45,314 nt of DNA from an uncultured Microcaldota archaeon. GTDB taxonomy: Archaea; Micrarchaeota; Micrarchaeia; CAILAH01. A program made the translations under genes and the position numbers. Of the stretch, positions 19,920 to 30,082 are shown in pieces (position 1 is the first letter of the stretch; every line of letters begins with the position of its first letter). Below the pieces are notes generated by a model. That model was not told the origin of the DNA, searched no databases, and saw only the letters and a program-made list of their open reading frames with translations. Location of the stretch: assembly GCA_903832205.1 (NCBI GenBank), contig CAILAH010000063.1, positions 1 through 45,314 of the forward strand. Reading direction: 5' to 3'.

Positions 19920-20021
19920 CAGCCCAAGGGGGAGCGCCGCATTTTCGCAGCGGCGAAAAGCGACGCCTTTTGGCTCTCAGCCAAAAGAGCGCCCCCTTAG
20001 TCCGTCACCGCCCAAACCCCC
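19920..20021. repeat. R2 dispersed repeat, intergenic copy, 5 nt downstream of the argS stop
   Basis: CAGCCCAAGGGGGAGCGCC...GCGCCCCCTTAGTCCG..ACCGCCCAAACCCCC; about 99/102 identical by eye to 27802-27903; outer AAGGGGG/CCCCCTT stem with two inner hairpins. Confidence 0.92.
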
Positions 20022-21887: not shown

Positions 21888-21990
21888 CACTGATGGGGAA
21901 CCTAGGTTCCCCCTGTGCATCTTCGCCGTGCGAAGATGATGCATCATTCGGCTCCGCCGAATGCATGTCGTGTGGTCTACACCCCTTCCT
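21888..21990 (+). repeat. R1 dispersed repeat, intergenic copy A
   Basis: CACTGATGGGGAACCTAGGTTCCCC...CGTGTGGTCTACACCCCTTCCT; about 100/103 identical by eye to 27462-27564. Confidence 0.93.
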
Positions 21991-27432: not shown

Positions 27433-27461
27433 GCCTTACCCTTCGTTAATAATATTTAAAT

Positions 27462-27564
27462 CACTGATGGGGAACCCAGGTTCCCCCCGTGCATCTTCGC
27501 CGTGCGAAGATGATGCATCATTCGGCTCCGCCGAATGCATGTCGTGTGGTCTACACCCCCTCCT
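27462..27564 (+). repeat. R1 dispersed repeat, intergenic copy B
   Basis: CACTGATGGGGAACCCAGGTTCCCC...CGTGTGGTCTACACCCCCTCCT; near-identical to 21888-21990. Confidence 0.93.
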
Positions 27565-27646
27565 GCGAATATTTAAATTTGTTATCTACTCAAAGAACGT
27601 CATAGGGCTCCTGTAGTCTAGCCCGGTTAAGGACATTGGCCTCTCA

Positions 27647-27777
27647 AACACTGATGGAAGGGGGCACATCCCCCTTCCCTCGTGTGGCGTCAACCTATGG
27701 TTGACGACTTGCACAAACCTCGTTTGTGCAATGGTCTACACCTAACCCCCTGCGGGTTTGGGTTGTACTAAAGAGAA
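27647..27777 (+). other. tRNA-Glu intron 1 (position 37/38)
   Basis: Flanked by TTGGC/GCCGA stem, CTCT/AGAG central helix and 3-nt bulges. Confidence 0.88.
27649..27742 (+). repeat. R1-family repeat inside tRNA-Glu intron 1
   Basis: CACTGATGGAAGGGGG-CACAT-CCCCCTTCCCTCGTGTGG + two extra hairpins + TGGTCTACACC. Confidence 0.8.
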
Positions 27778-27798
27778 CGCCGAAAGCCCGGGTTCGAA

Positions 27799-27927
27799 TC
27801 TCAGCCCAAGGGGGAGCGCCGCATTTTCGCAGCGGCGAAAAGCGACACCTTTTGGCTCTCAGCCAAAAGAGCGCCCCCTTAGTCCGAGACCGCCCAAACC
27901 CCCAATGGTTTGGTGGTATTTCGAAAA
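27799..27927 (+). other. tRNA-Glu intron 2 (T-loop, position 59/60)
   Basis: CCGGG-TTCG-AA^T ... CGAA-AA^T-CCCGG; 4-bp central helix and two 3-nt bulges. Confidence 0.88.
27802..27903 (+). repeat. R2 dispersed repeat copy inside tRNA-Glu intron 2
   Basis: About 99/102 identical by eye to 19920-20021. Confidence 0.92.
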
Positions 27928-27987
27928 TCCCGGCAGGAGCTTTCTTATTCTTTTATTTCTTGCTGCAGATACCCTAGTGGTGAGCCT

Positions 27988-29719: not shown

Positions 29720-29804
29720 GCGAAAAACAAATATTAAAAAGCTATTACAACCGAAGATATATTCGTGCCGAGGTGGCAGAATCCGGTAATGCGTACGCCT
29801 TGAG

Positions 29805-29950
29805 TATGGGTGAGGGAGAAGCGTCTCCCTCTCCCATAAGACCCAACTCCCTCTCAAGAGGGTTTTGGACTCCTGTGGATTGAAATTCTCCTTCGTATGA
29901 GGGGGAGGTGTAGACCACACGAGGAGGGGGATACTTCCCCCTCATCAGTG
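29805..29950 (+). other. tRNA-Ser intron (position 37/38, ends +/-1-2 nt)
   Basis: Bounded by TACGC/GCGTA anticodon stem; TTGA/TCAG can form a central helix; internal TATGGG-T-GAGGGAGA...TCTCCCTC-T-CCCATA hairpin. Confidence 0.8.
29907..29950 (-). repeat. R1-family core repeat, reverse orientation, at the 3' end of the tRNA-Ser intron
   Basis: Reverse complement reads CACTGATGAGGGGGAAGTATCCCCCTCCTCGTGTGGTCTACACC. Confidence 0.8.
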
Positions 29951-29984
29951 AGCGTATGTCCGCAAGGACTCAGGAGTTCAAATC

Positions 29985-30082
29985 TCCTCCTCGGCGCTTT
30001 CTTTTTTAATTTTTCGCCTCGTCGGTTTTGCCTTCGGCAAAATCTCTGCAGCAAAGAGCTGCAGATTTCCTCCTCGGCGCTT
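29985..30082 (+). repeat. 15-bp direct repeat of the tRNA-Ser 3' end flanking a hairpin-rich 68-bp segment
   Basis: TCCTCCTCGGCGCTT at 29985-29999 and 30068-30082; between them TTTTGCC-TTCG-GCAAAA and CTGCAGC..GCTGCAG hairpins. Confidence 0.85.

Follow-up and report, generated by a model that had tools for sequence, protein, structure and literature searches.

We found a family of short palindromic repeats, R1, that occupies both transfer RNA (tRNA) introns and intergenic DNA in the genome of an uncultured Micrarchaeota archaeon. The family came to attention in contig CAILAH010000063.1 (45,314 nucleotides, hereafter the window), in which an earlier note had placed four copies. All four are where it put them: copies 21888, 27462, and 27649 (named after their first nucleotides) on the forward strand and one at 29907–29950 on the reverse strand. 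R1 is probably a mobile palindromic DNA insertion element of the Micrarchaeaceae that targets tRNA genes and there founds introns or takes them over. The family itself, its hairpin, its insertion, the empty sites, the duplications, the position at predicted splice sites, and the presence or absence among relatives can be read directly from the sequences. R1 thus offers a visible candidate route by which archaea may acquire tRNA introns. It displays within one lineage the stages that have been missing, namely free copies, empty sites, target duplications, and intron copies in two orientations; orthologous tRNAs with and without R1 complete these stages, and the question of intron gain becomes directly testable.

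The genome holding the window (G000; 1.11 Mb in 70 contigs, the window being C63) was compared with a genome of the same genus (G001), two of the same family (G003 and G004), and one of a sister genus (G002). G003 gives hits identical to those of the Candidatus Micrarchaeum sp. SulCav_AS07-7 record, which assigns the window to an archaeon of Micrarchaeaceae type. The assemblies are metagenomic, those most used being 64–93% complete, and several loci in G003 are masked with Ns. The census was based on pattern and model searches, with the contexts inspected in stretches. The pattern CACTGATG occurs 55 times genome-wide in G000, compared with 10 occurrences of a reversed control pattern; matches within open reading frames were set aside as chance. 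The pattern GGTCTACACC was found 16 times (control 6), in every case (16/16) preceded upstream by a like-oriented CACTGATG. A genome scan with a covariance model, the check named beforehand, was performed with a model trained on 11 short copies and gave 24 matches in G000, 10 in G003, and 3 each in G001 and G004; the sister genus G002 had none. With model and pattern matches merged and reverse readings dropped, G000 holds 22 distinct copies. The family stands well above chance. Outside the Micrarchaeaceae the model gave weak matches only, the best (28.6 bits) in family f15, and the viral contigs searched for R1 gave no match. In f15, another family of the same class, a similar hairpin CACCA...TGGTGGAACCTACCCCCCTCAT is present (L072, L081, L091, and L073 of genome G045), at L073 with a direct repeat of ~50 nt on both sides; these elements (CACCA...TGGTGGAACC), being weak R1-like matches, were excluded from the R1 count.

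R1 is noncoding and ~44–155 nt long. It comprises an exact end, CACTG, followed by a covarying hairpin, then GTGTGGTCTACACC, and lastly a C-rich tail of varying length. The order is CACTG, hairpin, CTCGTGTGGTCTACACC, TAYCCCCCTCAT, and the terminal CAC pairs with GTG, the hairpin reaching the very end of the element. Both termini had been described as conserved. This is true of the CACTG end, which is the only fixed one; GGTCTACACC is not the 3′ terminus, as the C-rich tail TAYCCCCCTCAT, variable in length, continues beyond it. When the copies were aligned independently of the structure, 96.9% of the cells at hairpin positions were paired, and six pairs show compensatory change, with 18 cells altered on both sides. 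Neither the paired fraction nor the covariation score was matched in any of 500 shuffles, and sliding the partner strand abolished the pairing. Folded as single-strand DNA, R1 gives z scores from −3.1 to −8.4. Longer copies contain an extra double hairpin nested at one of two places, either between the hairpin and CGTGTGG (21888, 27462, L025, and L040) or inside GTGTGG^TCTACACC (27649, L021, and, in G003, L061), and L047 has both placements. The copies 21888 and 27462 are 97% identical across 104 nt. Copy 27649, which lies in a tRNA-Glu intron, matches the intergenic copy L024 exactly over its first 39 nt, and a little-changed version of the nested unit of 27649 is found again in G003. The sequence of a second subfamily is CACTGCGG...CCCCGTGTGGTCTGCCCC. 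A partial terminal inverted repeat, CACTGATGAGGGGG / CCCCCTCATTAG, is present in some copies, being clear in L025 and L040 and missing in others.

Two syntenic empty sites could be aligned, one for copy 27462 and one for a copy flanking tRNA-Ile(GAT). At the former, the interval from the lipoprotein gene to tRNA-Glu contains AATAATATTTAAA in G001, and in the same interval of G000 R1 is bordered by two copies of AATATTTAAAT. At the latter, with the same downstream gene, G003 and G002 are without R1 and G000 has R1 together with a repeated tRNA 3′ end. With the upstream flanks anchored at CACTG, direct repeats adjoining this end were detected in 7 of the 17 nonintronic copies (30, 21, 19, 17, 11, 11, and 9 nt; two contain a mismatch). 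Crossing the flanks of different copies gave scores of at most 10, save for crosses between similar tRNA ends (12). Six of the seven repeats occur at the 3′ flanks of tRNAs (Gly-GCC, Glu-TTC, Thr-GGT, Ile-GAT, Val-GAC, and Ile-TAT of G003), and in all six R1 is inverted relative to the tRNA and the repeat begins at tRNA position 63–65. Copy 21888 has a possible, weak flanking repeat, ATTTGAGCACCT/ATTTTAACACCT. Both orientations of R1 occur, which argues that DNA, and not only sense intron RNA, moves. A target duplication of fixed length was tested over the seven repeats and not found (9–30 nt), and R1 was for this reason not filed as a miniature inverted-repeat transposable element (MITE). The comparison to MITEs made at the outset nevertheless captures that R1 is inserted, multiplied, and palindromic; it is not supported by the flanking repeats, which vary in length, and no transposase was found among the Y1, tyrosine recombinase, and Cas1 families searched.

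The association with tRNA genes required a finder of our own, as standard tools missed tRNAs with multiple introns: ARAGORN in bacterial mode reported no tRNAs in the window, and our finder, which permits one anticodon-loop and one T-loop intron, recovered both tRNAs of the window and a total of 91 across the five genomes. Of the 22 R1 copies in G000, 13 are within a tRNA gene or at most 60 nt from one. This is far above chance, as, on the assumption of 46 tRNAs, ~1% of the genome lies within that distance of one; the exact probability hinges on this assumption. Six copies are located within tRNA genes (Glu, Ser, two in Tyr, Phe, and a Thr/Asn chimera; the Phe host is our own reading, the finder calling it Met-CAT), six are directly 3′ of a tRNA, and copy 27462 ends 47 nt upstream of one. 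The chimeric locus (L051, C57:7971) begins with the 5′ half of a Thr tRNA, continues with R1 and with an intron end and 3′ half of Asn type, and closes with a Thr 3′ end; it could reflect either gene conversion or misassembly. In L018 and L057, R1 starts at the base right after a TAA stop codon. We also observed that the 3′ ends of tRNAs, together with some of the trailer, are repeated at least once downstream with ~45-nt hairpin spacers in between (G002 L162, L165, L166, L176, L180, L181, and L186; G003 L124; G001 L118; window 29985–30082). In G002, nearly the same spacer follows several different tRNAs, and the tRNA-Ser of the window has one repeat.

Splice sites were predicted by an explicit scan for bulge–helix–bulge (BHB) motifs, which placed nearly all anticodon-loop introns after nucleotide 37 and T-loop introns after nucleotide 59. 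The predictions support a coincidence of the CACTG end with BHB sites in at least 10 tRNA introns of four genomes. In sense copies (Glu in two genomes, Leu-TAG, where the end reads CGCTG, Lys, Arg-GCG, Arg-CCT, and Tyr), the first base of CACTG is intron nucleotide 1 to 3, or 0–2 nt from the predicted 5′ splice site. Where the element is inverted in an anticodon loop, CAGTG closes the intron at the predicted 3′ site (Ser and Phe in G000, Phe in G003, and Cys in G001). The inverted copies supply the 3′ half of the motif: TCAG, once GCAG, pairs with C32–U33 and the next two bases, and the bulge is TG^A. Because C/U32–U33 is common to tRNAs, the inverted R1 end would be a nearly generic half-site. 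One T-loop intron of Tyr contains two R1 copies, the first at its start in sense orientation and the second, inverted, close to its end. The window contains both arrangements. For tRNA-Glu(CTC), the intron is predicted to begin at 27647, with CACTG following at 27649, and in tRNA-Ser(TGA) the predicted intron end, 29950, is the last base of CATCAGTG; the BHB model thereby reproduces the offsets noted earlier, 2 nt inside the 5′ site and exactly at the 3′ site. The wider statement that the ends of the element coincide with splice sites applies to the CACTG end and not to the other. T-loop introns nearly all end in TGAAA, pairing with TTCA of the T-loop.

Orthologous tRNAs differ in what their introns contain. 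Leu-TAG has a module of another hairpin family (R3) in G000, R1 in G001, and none in G002, the intron 3′ end being the same in G000 and G001; Lys-CTT has a diverged R1-like module in G000, R2 in G001, R1 in G004, and none in G002; Phe has an inverted R1 in G000 and G003 and a 35-nt intron without R1 in G001. Asp-GTC has an R5 T-loop intron in G001 only and not in G000 or G003. In Arg-GCG, R1 is in the anticodon loop of G001 and forms a T-loop intron in G003 only, this intron being absent from G001 and G002 and G002 having R1 in neither loop. As the modules differ between orthologous introns, the elements appear to come and go at fixed structural sites. Features of two known kinds of element are found here: as for an introner, the Arg-GCG T-loop R1 is missing from relatives, and element edges lie at the predicted splice sites; as for the transposed tRNA introns of Thermoproteales, similar introns are seen in different tRNAs at predicted BHB sites. 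Gain of a whole intron through R1 is supported by these comparisons at T-loop introns (Arg-GCG of G003); the anticodon-loop sites may have had older introns. The labels R2–R7 were given by reading introns, and about five further hairpin families (R2, R3, R5, R6, and R7) are common to introns of different tRNAs in G000–G004. The R2 module of the tRNA-Ser intron is also found in Thr-CGT (G000), Lys-CTT (G001), and Thr-TGT (G004), and a repeat of family R4 has one copy in intergenic DNA and another in the tRNA-Glu T-loop intron.

From these patterns we infer how R1 would be copied and spliced, that it would be mobile at present, and what may mobilize it. The CACTG end is joined precisely to the target and the other end is variable, with R1 inserting either way round and often duplicating 9–30 nt of the target. 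The preferred targets are the anticodon loop at 37/38, the T-loop at 59/60, and the boundary of the T-stem and acceptor at 63–65, where the duplicated 3′ end keeps the tRNA whole. Insertions in tRNA genes would be tolerated because the tRNA splicing endonuclease excises R1 at a BHB whose intron side is provided partly by the element's own end, either as CACTG after the 5′ site or as TCAG-TG^A at the 3′ site. New introns could be founded in this way or old ones taken over. A T-loop intron might arise from a landing at 63–65 with duplication of the 3′ end and subsequent loss of the first copy, after which R1 would be the intron and the second copy the 3′ exon. The structure of the Micrarchaeum splicing endonuclease has been solved. 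The enzyme accepts relaxed motifs (PMC12397907, PMC6379350).

Several observations weigh against R1 being a mobile founder of introns. No clear flanking repeat was found in 10 of the 17 nonintronic copies, nor was one seen around the anticodon-loop copies. Compared with shuffled introns, several single splice motifs are not significant (Ser, P = 0.30; Glu, P = 0.06); we consider the register common across genomes the stronger argument. The tRNAs of G002 often carry a short 37/38 intron, which R1 need not have founded, and R1 may therefore have joined or replaced older anticodon-loop introns. Furthermore, no tyrosine integrase (PF00589), Y1 HUH transposase (PF01797), or Cas1 (PF01867) was found in G000–G003, whose assemblies are 64–93% complete. 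An autonomous relative with R1 ends was not seen either, in a search limited to the Y1, tyrosine recombinase, and Cas1 families. The mobilizing enzyme may be encoded by an unseen virus or plasmid and act in trans. One candidate for an autonomous element, an inverted R1 pair at C26:51734–53589 (L147), surrounds tRNA-Ser(GCT) and a gene with metallophosphoesterase/RNase H-like domains; it was rejected, the enclosed genes lacking a transposase. The only RVT_1 match among G000–G003 is a reverse transcriptase of G000 (L146, C26:45301–45948), which was rejected as the mobilizer since it is below the group II intron reverse transcriptase cutoff and absent from the R1-bearing G001 and G003. It resembles a component of a diversity-generating retroelement, judging by eye from template and variable repeats.

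That reverse transcriptase matters for another explanation, in which a tRNA intron is copied among tRNAs at the RNA level, by ligation into a cleaved tRNA, reverse transcription, and recombination, or else by gene conversion, the intergenic copies being strays. Intron families at the same structural positions in many tRNAs fit this, as do the intergenic copies that resemble introns shortened at the 3′ end (R4 at 19920 and R1 at 27462), the presence of a reverse transcriptase in G000, and, for gene conversion, the Thr and Asn parts combined in L051. We consider it unlikely, because the inverted intron copies (Ser, Phe, Cys, and Tyr) are antisense to the tRNA transcript, copy 27462 has a target duplication in non-tRNA DNA, and G001 and G003 carry R1 without a reverse transcriptase. 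The copies flanking tRNAs could alternatively be relics of attachment sites, R1 being a passive passenger on circles that a virus or plasmid integrase recombined at tRNA 3′ ends. A duplicated tRNA 3′ end with a restored gene is indeed the hallmark of archaeal integrase sites, the duplications begin at 63–65 in all six cases, and like arrays with other hairpins exist in G002, G003, G001, and the window. This seems quite improbable given that no tyrosine integrase was found in G000–G003 and that cargo is absent, and it leaves the copies at splice sites, the insertion at 27462, and the copies after stop codons unexplained.

We regard it as very improbable that R1 is a selected structured RNA, such as a guide RNA, terminator, or processing signal, and not mobile. 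Its conserved sequence and covarying hairpin, and copies that immediately follow stop codons or a tRNA 3′ end (L018, L057, and L042), would suit such a role; the occurrence in both orientations relative to the host gene, the target duplications, the empty sites, and the change of host genes between genomes speak against it, as does the lack of any Rfam family in the window at the gathering threshold, a search that also missed the intron-split tRNAs. Two specific identities were rejected: CTGATG recalls part of the hammerhead ribozyme core, but the GAAA part is missing, and for a box C/D guide RNA a D box is lacking and the copies lie in both orientations.

As a mobile insertion element, R1 is best read as behaving like a eukaryotic introner and extending the tRNA-intron transposition of Thermoproteales. 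The latter was inferred in 2010, as summarized in later papers (PMC4090602, PMC4033280, PMC10714607), its mechanism being called unknown (PMC4090602), and the Kanai group already terms such introns transposable elements (PMC10714607). As far as those accounts describe them, the Thermoproteales introns share with R1 the turnover between close relatives; R1 adds free intergenic copies, target duplications, empty sites, and inverted orientation, and belongs to a different phylum with the three-unit type of endonuclease known from ARMAN-2. With introners, R1 shares many copies per genome and insertions that give an intron at the element's own edge, but the introns are protein-spliced BHB introns of tRNAs, not spliceosomal introns of mRNAs, and one end only is fixed. 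Like R1, casposons and Cas1-type integration use the tRNA 3′ end as a target, with a target duplication; in R1 the duplication varies in length, cargo genes are absent, and Cas1 was not found in G000–G003. MITEs and PATE/REPIN elements are likewise short, noncoding, palindromic, and multicopy, with a partial terminal inverted repeat, and differ in that R1 has target duplications of variable length and no matching or Y1 transposase was found. The Caldiarchaeum tRNA-Thr locus (PMC3293823) also links intron gain to a mobile element and has tRNA sequence duplicated at the border of the insert, but that is a single 1.8-kb insert with a recombinase gene, whereas R1 is a coding-free hairpin at many loci. 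In the literature searched, which did not extend to subscription papers such as Fujishima 2010 and 2011, no intron-forming archaeal element with free copies is reported. A more specific proposal is offered tentatively: R1 could be an archaeal introner that carries a portable BHB half-site (CACTG / TCAG-TG^A), so that insertions at 37/38 or in the T-loop are born spliceable, with an undescribed mechanism (one fixed end and variable duplication) and as one of about seven hairpin families in one archaeal family.

Table 1. R1 copies and associated features in the window, with introns and splice sites as predicted
Feature	Position	Strand	Remark
R4 repeat, intergenic copy	19920–20021	+	
R1 copy, intergenic, nested double hairpin	21888–21990	+	10 nt upstream of argS start codon
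Direct repeat AATATTTAAAT, first copy, adjoining CACTG	27451–27461	+	Single in syntenic G001 empty site
R1 copy, nested double hairpin, between lipoprotein gene and tRNA-Glu	27462–27567	+	
Direct repeat AATATTTAAAT, second copy	27568–27578	+	
tRNA-Glu(CTC) gene	27607–27941	+	Two predicted introns: 27647–27777 (37/38) and 27799–27927 (T-loop)
R1 in tRNA-Glu intron 1, sense	27649–27742	+	2 nt inside predicted 5′ splice site
R4 repeat (CAGCCCAAGGGGG...) in tRNA-Glu T-loop intron	27802–27903	+	97% identical to 19920–20021
tRNA-Ser(TGA) gene	29767–29996	+	Single predicted intron 29805–29950
R2 repeat (TATGGGTGAGGG...CCATAAGACCCAAC...) at 5′ end of tRNA-Ser intron	29805–29867	+	End approximate
R1 inverted, CACTGATGAGGGGG...GGTCTACACC	29907–29950	−	Ends exactly at predicted tRNA-Ser 3′ splice site
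tRNA-Ser 3′ end TCCTCCTCGGCGCTT, second copy	30068–30082	+	First copy 29985–29999, double hairpin between
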